64,000 bases of DNA from Candidatus Bipolaricaulis sibiricus (GTDB lineage: Bacteria > Bipolaricaulota > Bipolaricaulia > Bipolaricaulales > Bipolaricaulaceae), in assembly GCA_004102645.1 (NCBI GenBank), contig CP034928.1, positions 558,001 to 622,000 on the forward strand, read 5' to 3'. Below the pieces are notes generated by a model that was given only the letters and a program-made list of their open reading frames with translations, ran no database searches and was not told the origin of the DNA. The translations under genes were made by a program, and so were the position numbers. Within the stretch, counting starts at the first letter, position 1. Each line of letters begins with the position of its first letter. Of the stretch, positions 15,070-58,334 are shown piece after piece.

Positions 15070-15287
15070 GGTATCAGTAACCTCGCGTAGAGATTGAGTA
15101 GCTTTTCCCCTTCCTTCTCCCAATTGTACTTCTCTTCCACTGCGCGACGGCCGTGCTCGCCCATGCGCAGGGCCTCCTCGCGGTGGGTGAGAAGGTATTC
15201 TACAGCCTGGGCAATTACCTTAGGGTCGAGCGGGTCGACGCACAGGCCGCAATTGTTCCCCCCCCGACCTCCCTTCCACAGCGGTGA
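15066..15287 (-). pseudogene. 3' fragment of a GT4 glycosyltransferase (copy 3)
   Basis: About 74 codons, from PLWKG to a TGA at 15066-15068, match the C-terminus of the intact glycosyltransferase at 17265-18380. In the 63-residue block starting GGNNCGLCVDPLDPK, about 54 residues agree by hand count. No start codon or N-terminal part exists. Just upstream on this strand lies a MazF/RHH toxin-antitoxin module. The fragment keeps a natural ATGA junction with the WbuB-like gene. Confidence 0.85.
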
Positions 15288-15390
15288 GGACGCAGACGCT
15301 TCTGCTCATCATCGAGCCTTCATTCCAGCTCCTGCCCCTTGCCCCCGTCCGCCGGTAGAGCGCCCAGTCGCCCCGCCGAGAAAGCAAGGA

Positions 15391-15732
15391 TTAGAGCTCC
15401 AAGAGGATCCTCAGACGGTCCTCGACCTCCGCCAGCGTCGTTGGGGTAACCCTTCCCCAGAGCTCCAATAACCGCTCCTTGGCTACCGAGCGCAGATCCT
15501 CGCACTTGATAAAGCTCCGCCGCTCCAGCCCACCCTGGGGCGGCTGGACCTCTACATGGAACGGGATGCCCTTCTCCTTGGTGGTGAGAGGAATGACCAG
15601 GACCAGTCCGGCCGGGCCATGATTGAACTCGTCAACCGAGATCACCAGAGCGGGGCGCCGGCCCGCGGGCTCGTGCCCTCGGACGGGGGAGAGATCCACC
15701 AACCAGATCTCCCCACGGGATGGCTTATCCAA
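15391..15732 (-). CDS. mazF: MazF/PemK-type toxin
   Basis: The 113-residue protein shows the MazF fold signature: PSRGEIWLVDLSPVRGHEPAGRRP shown in part as GEIWLVDLSPVRG, then RPALVISVDEFN, VLVIPLTTKEKG and RSFIKCEDLRSVAKERL. MazF toxins are mRNA interferases. It starts with TTG at 15732, 3 nt after the antitoxin stop, so the two are cotranslated. The module sits between two glycosyltransferase 3' fragments. Confidence 0.88.
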   Translation of the reverse strand: MDKPSRGEIWLVDLSPVRGHEPAGRRPALVISVDEFNHGPAGLVLVIPLTTKEKGIPFHVEVQPPQGGLERRSFIKCEDLRSVAKERLLELWGRVTPTTLAEVEDRLRILLEL

Positions 15733-15735
15733 GGC

Positions 15736-15981
15736 CTATTCCTCCAGACCGTCGGCGAGCGTCCCCTCCCAAGCGGCCCGCTCCTCTTCTTCGTCGGCCC
15801 AGGCCGCCTTTTCCGTTCGCAGGGCCGCAAAGGCCGCGTTGGCCTCCTTCAGGAACAGCTCCCGGCGGTAGCGTTCCACCGCCTCGTCCAGGAGCTCTTG
15901 GAGCTTCCGCCCGGTCCGCTCGGACAACTCCTGTAGGCTCTCTCTGGCCTCTCTGCTGATCCGCACCGTCGTGCTGGTCAT
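15736..15981 (-). CDS. Ribbon-helix-helix antitoxin of the MazF module
   Basis: An 81-residue protein beginning MTSTTVRISREARESLQELS, a ribbon-helix-helix DNA-binding domain, with a charged acidic helix (ANAAFAALRTEKAAWADEEE, residues about 50-70) that should neutralise MazF. The ATG at 15981 is chosen over a GTG 21 nt upstream because GGGGTGAAGTT precedes it as a ribosome-binding site. Autoregulation would be expected for this family. Confidence 0.85.
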   Translation of the reverse strand: MTSTTVRISREARESLQELSERTGRKLQELLDEAVERYRRELFLKEANAAFAALRTEKAAWADEEEERAAWEGTLADGLEE

Positions 15982-16206
15982 AACTTCACCCCTGATCGTC
16001 ACAAATGAGTCTACAGAAAAGCAACACCTCGGTCAAGAGGGAACTCCCGGTTGCCGATCGAGAAACCGCTGTGCGCACCATGACTAGCCCACTGCCCCAG
16101 GGCCAGCCCCGTTCGCCCGGTTGATCCCAAGCAGATCATCCAAGATCCCGCTTCCCTCTTCACCAGCTGGTCTTTACCGGATATCGGGCAATCGGCGGAT
16201 CAGCAG

Positions 16207-16278
16207 TTAGAATGGGGCCAAGCGGGGATCGTCAGTGATCCGCCATAGGAATACATGGGTATCTAATAGAGCCCTCAT
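16207..16278 (-). pseudogene. VapC toxin truncated after 23 codons
   Basis: An ATG overlapping the antitoxin stop (ATGA) opens a frame reading MRALLDTHVFLWRITDDPR, clearly the beginning of a PIN toxin, but it stops at 16207-16209 after 23 residues. The remaining PIN domain is absent from the following 200 bp. The toxin is lost while its antitoxin persists. Confidence 0.82.
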
Positions 16279-16511
16279 CCCTCGAATTCCCTGAGAATGG
16301 CTTCGGGGAGCGGCGCATCAAAATCGGGGGTAATCGTCACTTCGCCTTTAGCGCTTCCGGGAAGACGCCGCGCCGGCCGCTCCACCACGGGGACGAGTCG
16401 GGCAATGGGCCTACCGGCCTCGGCGATGATGGTCTCCTCGCCCTCCTTCACCTGCGCTAAGAGCTTAGAGAGAATGGTCTTCGCGTTGTGAATGTTTACC
16501 TGCTCAGGCAT
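16275..16511 (-). CDS. vapB: Orphaned VapB/Phd-type antitoxin
   Basis: A 78-residue Phd/YefM antitoxin, MPEQVNIHNAKTILSKLLA then ETIIAEAGRPIARLVP and a tail PLPEAILREFEG. It is nearly the same as the antitoxin at 10263-10499 along its length. Its cognate toxin is cut after 23 codons, so it now stands alone and might cross-neutralise the intact VapC at 9880-10266. Confidence 0.85.
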   Translation of the reverse strand: MPEQVNIHNAKTILSKLLAQVKEGEETIIAEAGRPIARLVPVVERPARRLPGSAKGEVTITPDFDAPLPEAILREFEG

Positions 16512-16567
16512 CTGAAATCACCCTACCGTGGCAGTATAGATTCAGTCAAGAATCGGACCCGCATGTG

Positions 16568-16699
16568 TCAGGGATCATTACCAGACGGAACCCTTAGTGG
16601 AAGGTCGAGCAACCTCCCGTAAAGCCTGAGCAACTTCGCGCTCTCCCGCTCCCAATTGAACTTCTCCTCCACCGCCCGGCGGCCGTTCTCGCCCATCTC
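16568..16699 (-). pseudogene. 3' fragment of a GT4 glycosyltransferase (copy 2)
   Basis: A frame ending in TGA at 16568-16570 reads MGENGRRAVEEKFNWERES and then AKLLRLYGRLL. It aligns with the last 30 residues of the intact glycosyltransferase at 17265-18380 (about 21 of 30 agree by hand). Only the end of the gene is present. It lies between a VapB module and a HicAB module. Confidence 0.78.
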
Positions 16700-16747
16700 T
16701 TGCTGCTCACGATCATCTAGTTGCCTTTTTGAGTAGCTCTGCTCTGG

Positions 16748-16972
16748 TCACTTGAGCCGCTCAAATTCCTCGACAGGGAGATTGACCTGCCGTAATATGC
16801 TCTTCAAAGTCCTTCTTTTCAACTCTTTATGATCTGGAACAGATAGGGTCATCTTAGGTGGCACCTCTCTCCGCAAGATCATATGGCTTCCTTTTCGGCG
16901 CACGAATACGAAGCCAACCTTCTCCAGCCTCCGAACCACCTCCCGTCCGGAGACGACGGGCAGCTTATCCAT
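16748..16972 (-). CDS. hicA: HicA mRNA interferase toxin
   Basis: The 74-residue protein has the HicA dsRBD-like fold: LPVVSGREVVRRLEKVGFVF, then RRKGSHMILRRE with the catalytic His in the conserved GSH motif, and LKRRTLKSILRQVNLPVEEF. HicA cleaves mRNA on translating ribosomes. It begins 1 nt after the stop of hicB. All motif residues are present, so it should be active. Confidence 0.9.
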   Translation of the reverse strand: MDKLPVVSGREVVRRLEKVGFVFVRRKGSHMILRREVPPKMTLSVPDHKELKRRTLKSILRQVNLPVEEFERLK

Positions 16973-16973
16973 T

Positions 16974-17201
16974 TCACACCGAGATCTGGACCGTATCGAT
17001 GATCACGTCGCTGGGGGGTATCTCATCTCCGAACTCTTTGGAGACCTCAATCCAGCCCGCGATCGCTTCTCTGATGTTCTGGAGGGCCTCCTGATAGGTA
17101 TCCCCTTCGCTTATGCAGCCGGGAAGGGATGGGACATAGACGGTGTAGCCACCCTCCTCCGCTGGTTCGAGGACGACCTTGTAGGAAAAGACTTTAGCCA
17201 T
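16974..17201 (-). CDS. hicB: HicB antitoxin
   Basis: The 75-residue protein shows the HicB partial RNase H-like fold: YKVVLEPAEEGGYTVYVPS, LPGCISEGDTYQEALQNIREAI, then GWIEVSKEFGDEIPPSD. It lacks a separate C-terminal DNA-binding domain. It precedes hicA, the less common antitoxin-first order, and lies 63 bp downstream of the intact glycosyltransferase stop. Confidence 0.9.
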   Translation of the reverse strand: MAKVFSYKVVLEPAEEGGYTVYVPSLPGCISEGDTYQEALQNIREAIAGWIEVSKEFGDEIPPSDVIIDTVQISV

Positions 17202-17264
17202 CTCGTTTCACCCCTCCTGAAAGGGCTCGCCTTGGGACATTATAGCTGAATCTCAGGGCCAATT

Positions 17265-18380
17265 TCAGCTCAAAAGCTCCGCATATAGTGCCAGCAGCTT
17301 CTCGCTCTCCTTCTCCCAATTATACTTCTCTCGCACCGCTTGCCGCCCGTGCTCGCCCATGCGGCGTGCTTCTTCTGGATGGGTAAGTAGATATTCAATA
17401 GCCTGAGCGATAGCCTTTGGGTCGAGCGGATCGACGCACAGGCCGCAGTTGTTCCCCCCCACGATCTCCTTCCACAGCGGGAAGTTTGAGGCCACCACGG
17501 GCAGCCCGGCGGCCATGTATTCGAAGAGCTTGACGGGCCAAGCTACAACGTAGCGGGGCTCAGGGTGCAGGCATACAAGGCCAATGTCAGCCTCTTTGAG
17601 GTGCCCATACACCTCCGGCGGCTGGAGCCAGCCGAGAAAGCGGACGCGCCGGTAGCCCGGCAGGGCCTGGAGTTCCCGCTCCAGCTCCGGCGGCTCGAAC
17701 CGGCCGATCAGGTCGAGTCGCAGGCCGTCAACGTGATCCAGATACTCCAGTGCCCGGACCATCTCCAAGGCCCCGCGGAGCTTGCTGATCCCGCCGACAT
17801 AGACCAGGGTCTTCTCCTTCCCCTCCTTCGGGACAGGGGAAAGATCCGGCAGCATCCGCAGGTCCGGATAATTGTGGATCACGACCGGATTGAGCCCCCG
17901 AAACTTCTCAGCAATCCCTTCCGTGGCCACGACCACGGCATCGAGCGCCCGGGACAGGAACTTTTCGAAAGCATTGAAAACGACGGCCAGCGGGTGCCTC
18001 AACAGGGCCGGGAGCCAGTGCTTGGTGAGGATCTGCTCCGGGACATCCTCGTGGACATCGTAGATCACCTTTGCCCGTGTCAGCATCTTGAGCAAGCCCC
18101 CGGCAAGAAGGAGTTCCGGATCGTGGAAGTGGTAGATATCCGCCCGCTGGCGCAGCGCCAGCCGGAACGCTCGCCAGGCGAGGCCGAAGATGCGGGTGAA
18201 GCGGTTCTTGGGCTTAGGCAGAGCGATGATCTGGACTCCGTCCACGACCTCGTTCTTATCGTGCTGGGCGATCAGGGTGACATCATGGCCTGCCCGGACC
18301 AGCGTCTTGGCCTCCTTGTGGAAGATCCGGGTGTCGAACGGTGGATGGACGGTGGTGAGGATGCAAACATTTTTGCCCAT
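17265..18380 (-). CDS. Glycosyltransferase family 4, intact copy
   Basis: A 371-residue GT-B glycosyltransferase. The N-terminal half begins NVCILTTVHPPFDTRIFHKE with a glycine-free entry typical of this GT4 branch; DIYHFHDPELLLAG and KVIYDVHEDVPEQIL follow. The C-terminal half has TLVYVGGISKLRGALEM, and the donor-binding PVKLFEYMAAGLPVVAS near residue 290. It probably adds one sugar of the repeat unit on the lipid carrier. Partial copies of its 3' end lie at 16568-16699 and 15066-15287 and of its 5' end at 18942-19019, all next to toxin-antitoxin genes. Confidence 0.9.
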   Translation of the reverse strand: MGKNVCILTTVHPPFDTRIFHKEAKTLVRAGHDVTLIAQHDKNEVVDGVQIIALPKPKNRFTRIFGLAWRAFRLALRQRADIYHFHDPELLLAGGLLKMLTRAKVIYDVHEDVPEQILTKHWLPALLRHPLAVVFNAFEKFLSRALDAVVVATEGIAEKFRGLNPVVIHNYPDLRMLPDLSPVPKEGKEKTLVYVGGISKLRGALEMVRALEYLDHVDGLRLDLIGRFEPPELERELQALPGYRRVRFLGWLQPPEVYGHLKEADIGLVCLHPEPRYVVAWPVKLFEYMAAGLPVVASNFPLWKEIVGGNNCGLCVDPLDPKAIAQAIEYLLTHPEEARRMGEHGRQAVREKYNWEKESEKLLALYAELLS

Positions 18381-53364: not shown

Positions 53365-55068
53365 ATGCCGAGCGAAGTGACCGAGCCGGTGGACTTCATC
53401 CGCGAGATCGTCCGCGACGACCTGCGCACGGGCCGGTTTGCCTACGTCCATACGCGGTTCCCGCCCGAACCGAACGCCTACCTCCACATCGGCCACGCTC
53501 AGGCGATCCTCCTCAGCTACGGGATCGCCCAGGAGTTCGGGGGGAAGTTCAACCTTCGTTTCGACGATACGAACCCGGAAAAGGAGAGCGTGGAGTACGT
53601 CGAGGCAATCAAACGCGACGTCCGTTGGCTGGGCGCGGACTGGGAGGACCGCGAGTTCTACGCCTCTGACTACTTCGAGCAGCTCTACCGGTGGGCCGAG
53701 GAGCTCATCCGCAAGGGCAAGGCCTACGTCTGCGACCTATCTCCGGAGGAGCTGAGCCGCCAGCGGGGGCAGCCGATCCGCGATGGCGACCGGGTGATCA
53801 CCCCCCCGGGGATCGAGAGCCCGTACCGCAACCGATCCGTGGAGGAGAACCTCGATCTCTTCCGCAGGATGCGGGCGGGGGAGTTCCCCGAGGGGTCGCG
53901 AACCCTGCGCGCCAAGATCGACATGACCCACCCCAACCTCAACATGCGTGACCCAGTTCTGTACAGGATTCTCCGTGCGCGCCACCACCGCACCGGCGAC
54001 GCGTGGTGCATCTACCCCAGCTACGACTGGGCCCACGGGCAGTCAGACTCGATCGAGGGAATCACCCACTCCATTTGCACCCTGGAGTTCGAGAACCACC
54101 GCCCGCTCTACGAATGGTTCCTCGACCAGCTCGGCGTGCATCACCCCCGTCAGATCGAGTTCGCGCGACTGAACCTGACCTACACCGTGCTCAGCAAGCG
54201 ATTCCTCCTGCGGCTGGTGCAGGAGGGGCGGGTGCGGGGGTGGGACGACCCGCGGATGCCGACGATCGCCGGGATCCGCCGCCGCGGTTACACCCCAGAG
54301 GCGATCGCAGACTTCGTCCGCCGGATCGGGGTCTCCAAGTCGGAGAGCGTGCGCGAGTTCGAACTCCTCGAGCACTGCGTGCGCGATGACCTCAACAAGC
54401 GTGCCCCGCGGCGAATGGCAGTCCTGGAACCGCTGAAGCTCGTGATCACGAACTACCCGGAGGGGCAGGTGGAGGAGTTCGAGGCGATCAACAACCCCGA
54501 GGATCCCGCGGCCGGGACGCGCCGGGTTCCGTTCTCGCGTGAGCTGTGGATCGAGCGGGAGGACTTCATGGAGAACCCGCCGTCCGGGTTCTTCCGCCTT
54601 GCCCCGGGCCGCGAGGTGCGGCTCCGGTACGCGTACCTCGTGAAGTGCGTGGACGTCGTGAAGGATGGGTCGGGGAGGGTGGTCGAGGTCCGCTGCACCT
54701 ACGACCCGGCGACGCGGGGGGGCGACGCCCCGGACGGCCGCAAGGTGAAGGCGACCCTTCACTGGGTGTCCGCCGCCCACGCCGTGGAGGGCGAGGTCCG
54801 GCTCTACGACCGGCTGTTCACCGTCTCCGATCCCCTCGACGTCCCCGAGGGGGAGGACTGGATCGCCAACGTGAACCCGAGCTCCCTCGTCGTGCTCACG
54901 GGCTGCAAGCTCGAACCGAGCCTGGCCGAGGTCGAGCCGGGGGAGCGGTTCCAGTTCGAGCGCAAAGGGTACTTCTGCGTGGACCCCGACAGCCGGCCCG
55001 GGGTGCCCGTGTTCAACCGCACCGCCACCCTCCGCGACACCTGGGCCAAGTTGCAGCGGCGTCAGTAG
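53365..55068 (+). CDS. glnS: Glutaminyl-tRNA synthetase
   Basis: A 567-residue class I synthetase: [20 protein letters not shown] (HIGH), [57 protein letters not shown], and [10 protein letters not shown] (KMSKS-like). Two beta-barrel anticodon domains follow. It charges tRNA-Gln directly, so an amidotransferase route is not needed for Gln. Confidence 0.95.
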
Positions 55069-55385
55069 AAGTGCCCAGGCCACGTGGATTACGTTGACCT
55101 ACCAACAGATATCGCGAAAGAGCACACCACGGCCTGTGCCCCACTCCCCATCTGGCGGCCATGGACGATTCCCATCTGTTCCCAGTCTACATAATGAAGT
55201 GCCAGCCGGCACACAACCCCCGTTTGACCAATTGAGGCCACATCCATAGGATGTCTTGCCGGGGGCAGACTAGCGGGAGGGGCAGTCCGTGAGTGCCAGA
55301 GCAGGGGAGAGCGGAGCCATGAGCGCCCAAAGCCAGACCGCGACCTATCATGACGATGCTACTGCCGGCTTGATAAGGGGGGAAT
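55069..55385. other. Gene-free, lower-GC stretch
   Basis: 317 bp between glnS and the DUF4268 gene, lower in GC than the surroundings. No coding or RNA signal was recognised. It marks the left edge of a small accessory island. Confidence 0.4.
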
Positions 55386-56327
55386 GTGAGACTGGGCAAG
55401 CTAGACCGGGTTGACCTGCGCAAGTACTGGAAGCACGAAGCTCTCGACTTCACCCGCTGGTTGTCGGAACCGGGGAGTATAGACCTCCTGTCGGACGAGA
55501 TCGGCATTGGCATCCAAGTCAGAGAGACCGAAGCGAGTGTTGGCCGCTTCAGTGTCGACATCCTTGCCGAGGAGGAGAACACGGGGCGGAAGATCATCAT
55601 CGAGAATCAACTTGAGTTGACCGATCACGGGCACCTCGGCCAACTCATCACCTATGCTGCTGGACTCGAAGCTGAGTTCATTGTGTGGATCGTCCGCGAC
55701 GTGAGAGAGGAACATCGGCAGGCTGTTGACTGGCTCAACGAGCACACGGATGAGCGGATCAACTTCTTCTTGGTAGCTATCGAGTTGTGGCAGATTGAGA
55801 ACTCCCCCCCAGCTCCGAAGTTCAATGTGATCTCAAGGCCAAACGAATGGAAGCGAGCGGTGCGTACAAGTGCCCAAGATGGCTTGACGGACACAAAGAC
55901 CAAGCAGCTTGAGTTCTGGCAGCAACTCAAGCAGTTCGCAACGACGCGATGCCCAGAACTCAAGCTCCGCACCCCCAGACCGCAACACTGGTTCGATGTC
56001 GCGATCGGTCGGTCCGACTGCCGTGTCGCGCTCGTCGTCGATTCGCGTGAGGACAAGGTACGATGTGAGCTCTACATCCCCGATTCGAAGGAGCTCTACC
56101 GGACCTTCCTCTCGCGTAAGGCGGAGATCGAGAAGGAGTTGGATATTGCGGAAGAACTCGAATGGCAGGAACTTCCCGGGAAGAAGGCAAGTCGCATCTG
56201 CGCTCTGCACAGCTTTCGGTTCGCCGATACGACGACATGGGAAGGGGCATTCGGATGGCTGATCGAGACCGCAAGACGATTCAAGCGCGTCTTTGCGAAG
56301 GACTGGGAACGACCGACTAGCGAGTAA
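55386..56327 (+). CDS. DUF4268-domain protein with nuclease-like N-terminus
   Basis: A 313-residue protein. The N-terminal half has FSVDILAEEENTGRKIIIEN and QLELTDHGHLGQLITYAAGL, resembling the PD-(D/E)XK core with D, E, and ENQ. The C-terminal half (from about 170) is DUF4268: WQQLKQFA, LKLRTPRPQHWFDVAIGRS and LDIAEELEWQELPGKKASRI. Such proteins occur in defence islands, but no methylase is adjacent. Lower GC suggests recent transfer. Start is GTG. Confidence 0.75.
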   Translation: MRLGKLDRVDLRKYWKHEALDFTRWLSEPGSIDLLSDEIGIGIQVRETEASVGRFSVDILAEEENTGRKIIIENQLELTDHGHLGQLITYAAGLEAEFIVWIVRDVREEHRQAVDWLNEHTDERINFFLVAIELWQIENSPPAPKFNVISRPNEWKRAVRTSAQDGLTDTKTKQLEFWQQLKQFATTRCPELKLRTPRPQHWFDVAIGRSDCRVALVVDSREDKVRCELYIPDSKELYRTFLSRKAEIEKELDIAEELEWQELPGKKASRICALHSFRFADTTTWEGAFGWLIETARRFKRVFAKDWERPTSE

Positions 56328-56563
56328 CAACCGAAGGCAAGAGCCCACCGGTCACTCATCAACCGCAGCTTTGGACGCTGTTCTGGCCGGTAGAGGGTCC
56401 AGCCGGGATCGCGGAGAGTGCAGCGTTCAGTAGCGTGCGCCGGTTCGAGATCCCAGATCCAACAATGACTGCCCTCCCAGCCACCTGAATGGTGGGCGTC
56501 ATGGTCGAGTCTGCGACCCTAATCGACCAGGCTAAAGGCTGTACGTGCTATACTTCCCCCCGC

Positions 56564-56668
56564 ATGGAACTGCGCGATGATCTGGTGATCGAGCCGGTCC
56601 GGGAAGGCGCGAGCTACCAGACCTACGAGTGGCCCTGTTCAAGGCGAACGGAAGTCACAGCAGCTTGA
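56564..56668 (+). pseudogene. 5' fragment of the GNAT acyltransferase gene
   Basis: A 34-residue frame starts MELRDDLVIEPVREGASY and diverges afterwards, ending in TGA at 56668. Bases 56547-56601, including the TATACT box and the start codon, are identical to 57451-57505 at the start of the intact acyltransferase gene. The fragment is followed by the HicA/HicB cassette. Confidence 0.88.
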
Positions 56669-56846
56669 GCCGTTTCAGATCCGCCTCGGTCCAGCTGAGG
56701 TCGTCCAGGATTGCCTGCAGGGTTCGGAGAGGGAACGTATCGCCAGGACGCCGGTACACGATCACCGCGCGTCGTCCATCTCGCGGGTTAGGGTAGACCC
56801 GATGGCTCCCTCGTTGCCGGTCGAGCAAGAACCCATCCCGCTCCAA
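56655..56846 (-). CDS. hicA: HicA-like toxin, possibly damaged at the start
   Basis: The frame encodes 63 residues, ERDGFLLDRQRGSHRVYPNP with the GSH motif, then VIVYRRPGDTFPLRTLQAIL. It begins with TTG at 56846, but homology extends upstream (TVRELCAAL) to a stop 9 codons earlier with no start codon. So either an unusual start is used or a 1 nt frameshift has broken the 5' end. Confidence 0.7.
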   Translation of the reverse strand: MERDGFLLDRQRGSHRVYPNPRDGRRAVIVYRRPGDTFPLRTLQAILDDLSWTEADLKRLKLL

Positions 56847-56896
56847 CGCAGCACAGAGTTCTCGGACGGTGATCGTTCACAGTTCGGGAGGGACCC

Positions 56897-57142
56897 TCAT
56901 ACCGTGACGGTGAGGGCCTCCTCTTGGGTCGAGGGAAGGTGCTCAGGGCCCTCCACGGGAATCGGGTCGCCGTGCGCGGGCATGGACTCGATATAAGCGG
57001 CAGCGGCTTCTCGGATGTTGACGAGCGCCTCATCCCGGGTGGCTCCCCAGGAATGGCAGCCACGAAGCGCGGGGCAGGAGGCGTGGAACCCGCCTTCATC
57101 CGGTTCCAGAACGACACGAACGCGAAACGTCACCTGTACCAT
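56897..57142 (-). CDS. hicB: HicB-like antitoxin
   Basis: An 81-residue HicB protein: VTFRVRVVLEPDEGGFHASC, PALRGCHSWGATRDEALVNI and REAAAAYIESMPAHGDPIPV. The ATG at 57142 follows GGAGGGG; upstream in-frame sequence is not family-like. It precedes hicA by about 50 nt. Confidence 0.85.
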   Translation of the reverse strand: MVQVTFRVRVVLEPDEGGFHASCPALRGCHSWGATRDEALVNIREAAAAYIESMPAHGDPIPVEGPEHLPSTQEEALTVTV

Positions 57143-57339
57143 CCCCTCCAGACGGAGCATAGCAGGCCGCCGCTCGCAGGGGTGGTAAGGCAAGCCCCGG
57201 GTCCGCGGACCTTGCTGGCCCGCGGATCTCCGCTGCAGGCAACGCAACCCTGATGAGCGGAGCTGCTCACCGCCGGGGGACGCCGAGAGACCCGCTGTCC
57301 GTGCTCCGTCGCCCGTAACCCGTTCGCCCCTCAAAGGCC

Positions 57340-57363
57340 GTCGGGGACAAGCCCCGACGCTAC
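57340..57363. repeat. REP-like hairpin with GTAG foot
   Basis: GTCGGGG-ACAAG-CCCCGAC (57340-57358) followed by GCTAC (57359-57363). It lies in the 325 bp gene-free stretch between hicB and the acyltransferase gene, in the same form as the 32483 copy. Confidence 0.75.
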
Positions 57364-57452
57364 AGCCCCCCGCAAGGCTTGCGTGGCCGCAGGATCCGCG
57401 GGCCTCGATAGTCAGGTGCGAGAGCGGCGAGCGAAGCCGGGGAAGGGGCGGC

Positions 57453-57458
57453 TATACT
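57453..57458 (+). promoter_or_regulatory. -10 box of the acyltransferase gene, duplicated at 56549
   Basis: TATACT with 9 nt to the ATG at 57468. The same box and spacing occur at 56549-56554 before the gene fragment, within a 55 bp exact repeat. Confidence 0.5.
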
Positions 57459-57467
57459 TCCCCCCGC

Positions 57468-58334
57468 ATGGAACTGCGCGATGATCTGGTGATCGAGCCG
57501 GTCCGCGACGGCGCGGGGTACCGCGCCTGCGAACGGCTCCAGCAACAGGTGTGGGGGTTCGCGGACCTCGCGGTGATCCCCGACCACCTCATCCACATGG
57601 TGGTCAACGCGGGGGGCCTCCTCCTCGGGGCGTTCGACGGGATCGGCCCGGGACGGGAGATGATCGGGTTCACCCTGTCCGTGGTCGGTCTGCTCGACGG
57701 CGGCGTGCTCCGCCACTACTCGCTCATGGCCGCGGTGCGGCCGGGGTTCCAGGACCGCGGGGTCGGTTATGCGCTCAAGCTCGCCCAACGGGAGCACGTG
57801 CTGGCCCAGGGGATCGGGATCATCACCTGGACGTTCGACCCCCTGGAGTCGCGGAACGCCTACTTCAACCTGAACAAGCTCGGGGGGGTCGTTGCCCAGT
57901 ACCTCCCCAACTACTTCGGGGAGCTCCGCGATGCGCGGAACCGGGGAATCGACACGGACCGCCTCCTCTGCCAGTGGCACCTGCGGTCGCCGCGCGTGGA
58001 GAGCTACCTCAAGGGCGGGAAGCCCCCCGCGCTCCCCCTCGGGGAGATCGAGACGATCAACCGCACCCAGCGCATGGCGTCGGGGCTGCGCGCCCCGGCT
58101 GGGTTCCGACCCGACCTGCGGGCCCCGAACCTTCTGTTCGAGATCCCGTCGGACCTCCAGACGCTGCGGAAGGAGGATCTCGACCTCGCCCGGACGTGGC
58201 GGCTCGAAGCGCGGCGGGCCTTGGGGACCTACCTCGACGAGGGGTACCTCGTGACCTCCCTCTTCCGCCAGGGCGACCGGAGCTTCCTCGTTCTGGAGAG
58301 GTCCTCTCTTCCCAAGGTTCTGGAACGGCCGTGA
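57468..58334 (+). CDS. GNAT-family acyltransferase (COG3375-like), probable N-succinyltransferase
   Basis: A 288-residue GNAT protein: ERLQQQVWGFADLAVIPDHL, GGLLLGAFDGIGPGREMIGF, HYSLMAAVRPGFQDRGVGYA with the acyl-CoA pyrophosphate loop, and WTFDPLESRNAYFNLNKLGG. Homologues next to racemases of the enolase superfamily succinylate D-amino acids in Geobacillus. The racemase-like gene overlaps its stop codon by 1 nt, supporting the same role here. A fragment of its 5' end lies 900 bp upstream. Confidence 0.75.
   Translation: MELRDDLVIEPVRDGAGYRACERLQQQVWGFADLAVIPDHLIHMVVNAGGLLLGAFDGIGPGREMIGFTLSVVGLLDGGVLRHYSLMAAVRPGFQDRGVGYALKLAQREHVLAQGIGIITWTFDPLESRNAYFNLNKLGGVVAQYLPNYFGELRDARNRGIDTDRLLCQWHLRSPRVESYLKGGKPPALPLGEIETINRTQRMASGLRAPAGFRPDLRAPNLLFEIPSDLQTLRKEDLDLARTWRLEARRALGTYLDEGYLVTSLFRQGDRSFLVLERSSLPKVLERP

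Follow-up and report, generated by a model that had tools for sequence, protein, structure and literature searches.

Homology-facilitated illegitimate recombination has been described in transformable bacteria and in Escherichia coli conjugation (PMC3240628), and the same process has been proposed for the T6SS effector-immunity arrays of Vibrio cholerae, in which displaced remnants are stacked in order (PMC5361080). A second described route is ordinary two-sided exchange at flanking core genes (PMC5635113). Insertion of RM units with long target duplication has also been reported (Nobusato 2000 and Furuta 2010, according to their citation in PMC3031569 and PMC3874152).

The locus described here lies in the genome of Candidatus Bipolaricaulis sibiricus, an uncultured member of the Bipolaricaulota with a single contig of 1.70 Mb; the whole stretch of 64,000 nucleotides that was analysed is referred to below as the window. 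It was compared with 11 congeners (G001–G011) and with a wider family sample of 40 genomes, most of the relatives compared being MAGs. Like the systems of PMC3240628 and the V. cholerae arrays, the locus would combine a conserved gene as homologous anchor, cargo beside it and displaced resident DNA that is partly kept, and repeated events would stack remnants in order as in V. cholerae. It differs in that the cargo consists of toxin–antitoxin (TA) and defence genes, the anchor is a core enzyme gene, the remnant is 60–200 bp of coding sequence and the mechanism is inferred from sequence only. Rapid turnover between conserved genes with no mobility genes seen, locally raised flank identity and DNA-uptake genes in the genome are shared with the exchange described in PMC5635113; that model, however, leaves no duplicated gene ends, and the remnants here would need an extra one-sided event. 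The likeness to RM-unit insertion lies in toxin-like selfish genes, direct repeats of tens to hundreds of bp and a single-copy empty site in a relative, but the repeats here are not of one age or origin, one of the copies travels together with the cassette and a duplication occurs in G002 without the cassette. We regard the process as one of a known kind and re-read the feature as a probable gene-start remnant in a hotspot with a probably dead HicAB pair. The interval and its flanks contain the following features.

53365..55068, plus strand: glnS, glutaminyl-tRNA synthetase, left flank (NCBIfam TIGR00440, 708 bits against a cut-off of 425.8)
55386..56327, plus strand: cargo B, DUF4268 protein of 313 aa (PF14088, E 3.8e-30; PADLOC PDC-S11, E 5e-122)
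56547..56633, plus strand: left copy L, with -10 box, ATG and first 23 codons, truncated; orthologous L in G007 and G010
56655..56900, minus strand: hicA toxin frame (PF07927, E 8.6e-9, on the part after the stop)
56897..57142, minus strand: hicB antitoxin, 81 aa from an ATG after GGAGGGG (PF15919, E 4.8e-8)
57182..57450, no strand given: resident spacer upstream of the acyltransferase gene, carrying a REP-like hairpin at 57336–57359
57451..57537, plus strand: right copy R, promoter and 5' end of the intact acyltransferase-like gene
57468..58334, plus strand: acyltransferase-like gene, right flank, intact and conserved, 288 aa

The two flanking genes bound the interval in 10 of the 12 genomes. 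In the congeners glnS adjoins the locus in 9 of 11 and lies elsewhere in G005 and G008, which have other left neighbours. For the 288-aa acyltransferase-like protein, neither Pfam nor NCBIfam gave a match at 1e-3. What lies between the two flanking genes varies among relatives, with different contents in G001, G002, G003, G004, G006 and G009, and outside the empty site of G011 the congeners have intervals of 0.5–5.2 kb. Cargo A, a cluster of an ArsR-type HTH protein, an ABC exporter and a radical SAM/SPASM protein whose families were named from the G007 copy, is common to G001, G007 and G010; an AIPR/AbiU-like protein is found in the G009 interval and a DpnII-MboI nuclease domain in that of G006. 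In the window, the DNA to the left of the repeat (55069–56546) is a second inserted cargo that the first-pass annotation had missed. Its gene, cargo B, is a lone PDC-S11 candidate defence gene present only in the window genome among the 40 family genomes. The empty site whose search in close relatives had been advised at first pass was found in G011, which carries one copy of the gene start and no cassette: the glnS stop is followed by 22 nt and then GCTATACT, and a gap of 34 nt lies between the last glnS-homologous base and the GCTATACT of the lone gene start. The glnS–acyltransferase interval is a turnover hotspot for defence and TA genes between two core genes.

The first-pass annotation had placed two identical 55-bp copies of the acyltransferase promoter and first codons around HicA, HicB and a REP hairpin, the left copy leading into a truncated 34-residue frame and the right into the full gene, and all of these elements were recovered. 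Recomputed by direct sequence comparison, bases 56547–56601 and 57451–57505 match exactly; the copies are 904 bp apart, and an exact match of 55 bp at such spacing is far beyond chance. Only one other family of local direct repeats of 40 bp or more occurs in the 64-kb window. Each copy runs from GCTATACT through the ATG to the first 23 codons of the acyltransferase-like gene, the homology extending to 56633 and 57537, respectively (87 bp, 89 % identity). The left copy opens a dead frame of 34 aa, MELRDDLVIEPVREGASYQTYEWPCSRRTEVTAA, which ends at 56668, and the right copy opens the gene of 288 aa. All 10 mismatches between the two fall in nucleotides 56–87, the last 32 nt (Fisher P 1.6e-5 for clustering). 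The first 79 nt of the right copy are the same in the window, G007, G010 and G009. By codon position, the differences between left and right copy numbered 4, 3 and 5, which is no third-position bias in a short copy, and a duplicate that arose within the lineage and then drifted could, given this lack of bias, account for the left copy. The 55-bp identity was also considered as proof of a recent crossover and dropped, the left copies of G007 and the window differing at only 3 of 79 sites. This divergence is about that of the cassette itself, so any resetting of the sequence must be ancestral, or else later drift explains the three sites; of that argument, the clustering of the mismatches alone was retained.

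Between the copies, the PF07927 and PF15919 matches are above the gathering score, and the hicA frame starts at 56900, overlapping the hicB stop. HicA-domain and HicB-like proteins encoded by overlapping genes are shared with HicAB type II toxin–antitoxin systems; the differences here are that hicB precedes hicA and that the window hicA has an early stop. This stop, also missed at first pass, is a TGA at codon 8 (56877–56879, minus strand), where a type II system would have an intact toxin gene, and the frame reads MRVPPEL-stop-TITVRELCAALERDGF. In the alignment this frame runs on without a stop in G007 and G010, the two relatives that carry the cassette. The sole listed restart is a TTG, which by our reading falls inside the first HicA helix. 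The HicA toxin is probably dead in the window genome, a reading that rests on one base in one assembly, and would be a family remnant with no active toxin here. A probably dead HicA argues against retention as an addictive element.

HicAB of the window type occurs at the glnS–acyltransferase site only in the window, G007 and G010. A search of plasmids gave no match to the HicAB-repeat segment; the ends of the cassette carry no terminal inverted repeats, and neither a sigma-70 promoter nor a terminator pattern was found in the region. A HicAB relative of 72 % identity lies elsewhere in G003. In the same genome, a HicAB relative adjoins a probable diversity-generating retroelement with reverse transcriptase (L086, G003:C32, 4982–6976), which has a 126-bp repeat pair at 87 %; an FGE-sulfatase-domain gene bears one of these two copies at its 3' end. 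To the right of the cassette, the resident spacer from about 57238 onwards is common to the window and the HicAB-less G004 and G009, and is different in G010. The REP-like hairpin at 57336–57359 has 12 matches in the genome at no more than 2 mismatches; related REP-like repeats of about 30 nt each form dense hairpin clusters in several blocks of 300–500 bp in another part of the genome (L104, G000:C1:1495001–1515000).

The left edge of the repeat coincides with a conserved promoter element. In all 12 genomes, and in more distant family members, the start codon of the intact gene is preceded at about 10 nt by TATACT, and the bases upstream of this box differ among relatives with or without cargo. 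On the strength of this family-wide conservation, the gene is probably leaderless. A leaderless gene would explain why the repeat begins at GCTATACT, since the DNA upstream of the -10 box would be free to change. Because conservation of the gene sets in at the -10 box in every relative, the edge need not be an attachment or recombination site. Long ORFs searched for leaderless -10 boxes in general showed no such signal, which may be owing to poorly called starts in a GC-rich genome.

The congeners indicate which of the two copies moves. In G001, the 4.2-kb cargo A lies directly before a single intact gene. In G007 and G010, the same cargo A and junction lead into the left copy, HicAB and then the intact gene. 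The block of cargo A, left copy and HicAB is 97.0 % identical over 4.9 kb between G007 and G010, against about 88 % for their glnS and acyltransferase genes, and the left copy and HicAB of the window are 97–98 % identical to those of these two relatives. Beyond HicAB on the right, the spacer in the window and G007 is that of G004 and G009, and the one in G010 is that of G002. Since the left copy lies inside the shared block and the spacers differ, the left copy travels and the right copy belongs to the resident gene. The left copy and HicAB have moved between species. In the window, cargo A has been replaced by cargo B right up to the left copy. In the one pair tested formally, the window and G010, identity is higher at both inner flank ends, at 97.5 % for the final 200 nt of glnS (P 3.5e-7) and 100 % for the first 100 nt of the acyltransferase gene (P 4.7e-6), as would be expected of exchange tracts ending there.

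A separate pair of gene-start copies was found in G002, where a second truncated start lies 1.8 kb upstream of the intact gene in a genome with no HicAB match. The 1.7 kb between these copies (L018, 6396–8111) holds no recognised gene and is possibly a decayed cargo. The left copies of G002 and of the HicAB carriers are truncated at about 80 and 87 nt, so that their ends lie no more than 8 nt apart. The -10 box has decayed in the truncated start of G002 and one of its bases is changed in the left copy of G010, so left copies are not kept as promoters. A donor form, with HicAB beside the gene but no left copy, was not found among the relatives examined.

A second locus in the window, at a glycosyltransferase gene, had been described at first pass as having the same arrangement. 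It comprises the following features.

15084..15284, minus strand: remnant c1, native 3' end of the glycosyltransferase, beside the ancestral neighbour gene (arrangement in G009 and G002)
15391..16002, minus strand: MazF/PemK toxin and ribbon-helix-helix antitoxin (PF02452, PF12651)
16605..16710, minus strand: c2, second 3'-end remnant
16748..17201, minus strand: second HicAB pair, both frames open (PF07927, E 1.5e-19; PF15919, E 2e-14)
17265..18380, minus strand: c3, full glycosyltransferase gene (PF00534 and related)

The likeness holds in so far as a gene end is duplicated and the locus has an empty site of its own, but here it is the 3' end that is involved and there are three diverged pieces. 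The order across 15084–18380 is the neighbour gene with the 200-bp c1, MazF with its ribbon-helix-helix antitoxin, a Phd-like protein, c2, HicAB and c3, so that the remnants are ordered outwards from the glycosyltransferase gene, as successive anchored events would leave them. In G009 and G002, a single glycosyltransferase 3' end is joined to the neighbour gene, which constitutes the second empty site, and c1 retains this native junction. Between c1 and c3, 4, 5 and 25 differences fall on the first, second and third codon positions, respectively. When polarised with G009 and G002 over the core, the changes numbered 1, 3 and 8 on the c1 branch and 1, 1 and 6 on the c3 branch; for the c1 branch taken by itself, 8 of 12 changes at third positions is a modest bias. 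Such a bias, not expected of a dead duplicate, suggests that c1 and c3 diverged as working genes in different genomes, and argues against a transposon-like target duplication at that locus.

The reading that we favour, and hold to be moderately probable, is that the left copy is a gene-start remnant of inter-species recombination at the hotspot. Incoming chromosomal DNA from a related species would recombine by homology in the flanking genes. In some events one end would be homologous, in the target gene, and the other would join illegitimately inside the resident copy; the resident gene end would then remain as a truncated remnant, with the complete gene beside the new cargo. The left copy would have formed once in the ancestor of the HicAB carriers and later moved between species with HicAB, and in the window the cargo to its left would have been swapped from A to B. 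The first 55 bp probably match the intact start through recombination or conversion between gene starts, and ordinary two-sided exchange at the flanking core genes would account for turnover and later spread. One-sided illegitimate joining, DNA uptake as the route and the conversion step are steps that we infer from the sequences. DprA and ComEC genes are present in the genome. Homologous recombination on one side with illegitimate joining on the other would be the simplest single account. An origin of remnant and intact gene as alleles of different genomes has support at the glycosyltransferase locus; the acyltransferase copies, whose differences over a short stretch show no codon bias, could be of either origin. 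What weighs against the remnant model is that no donor form was found and that the truncation points are close, which random one-sided joining does not predict.

The first-pass annotation had instead suggested a common integration mode of the TA cassette that generates the repeat and keeps the target gene. The target gene is indeed preserved, the acyltransferase gene being intact with its own -10 box. The integration mode was not borne out: the block common to different species includes the left copy and HicAB but is followed by varying DNA before the right copy, G002 has a duplicated start of the same gene with unrelated DNA in between, and the glycosyltransferase copies carry the signature of two diverged functional alleles. 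The same three observations bear on insertion of the HicAB unit at a staggered break in the gene start, which would duplicate about 87 bp of host sequence as a long target duplication. Direct repeats of the reported size class flank the unit, G011 provides a single-copy empty site, and RM cases with target duplications of about 100 bp have been published (PMC3874152, PMC3031569). At the acyltransferase locus, the differences between left and right copy resemble neutral drift, and this locus taken alone would fit such an insertion about equally well. We nevertheless consider it unlikely, because a duplication without HicAB in G002 is not tied to the inserted unit, the glycosyltransferase copies diverged as functional coding sequence, and mismatches confined to the last 32 nt do not describe a uniformly aged duplicate.

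Duplication of a gene end with restoration of the target gene is typical of integrase-driven elements, and the copies could on these grounds be read as attL and attR, left by site-specific integration of a TA-bearing element at the 5' end with the gene start restored. The truncations of G002 and of the HicAB carriers within 8 nt would also suit a fixed target. This explanation is very improbable, since the 0.9-kb insert holds only hicA and hicB, no integrase lies in it or near the locus, and the only tyrosine-recombinase match in the genome is at 888 kb, about 270 kb away, which tells equally against the first-pass integration mode. In addition, terminal inverted repeats are lacking, the copies differ across their last third, and the conserved edge of the supposed target stretch, GCTATACT...GAGCCGGTCC, is the promoter -10 box present in all relatives with or without cargo. 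If the gene had been duplicated in tandem, with one copy then mostly deleted and HicAB arriving later between what was left, this would explain why the left copy resembles a decayed within-clade copy, and whole-gene tandem copies do occur elsewhere in the genome (L089). Such a history would require repeated duplication plus deletion for the second locus and G002, and no relative with two full tandem copies was found, which makes it quite improbable.

To return to the remnant reading, 400 kb taken at even spacing across the genome yielded no other gene-end duplication of the kind. Set against the two loci of the window, the lack of any recognised in this sample suggests that such remnants are uncommon in the genome. 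Other repeats noted were the tandem paralogues of L089 (18569–19875), which have a common N terminus and a cupin-like C terminus, and diverged repeats resembling paralogues at L090 and L097.

The comparison shows that two signs, codon-position bias and the identity of the copy that accompanies the cargo, can separate gene-end remnants from target-site duplications, and it cautions that a direct repeat around a TA pair is not always the footprint of a mobile element. With empty sites at two loci, the remnant model is testable. More broadly, it is a doubtful but conceivable extension that TA and defence genes in the Bipolaricaulota spread as modules anchored on a core gene as homology arm, with an ordered stack of gene-end remnants recording successive invasions without a mobility enzyme. 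The two loci and their empty sites provide worked examples of how a genome of an uncultured phylum can acquire TA and defence genes although no mobility enzyme is visible.
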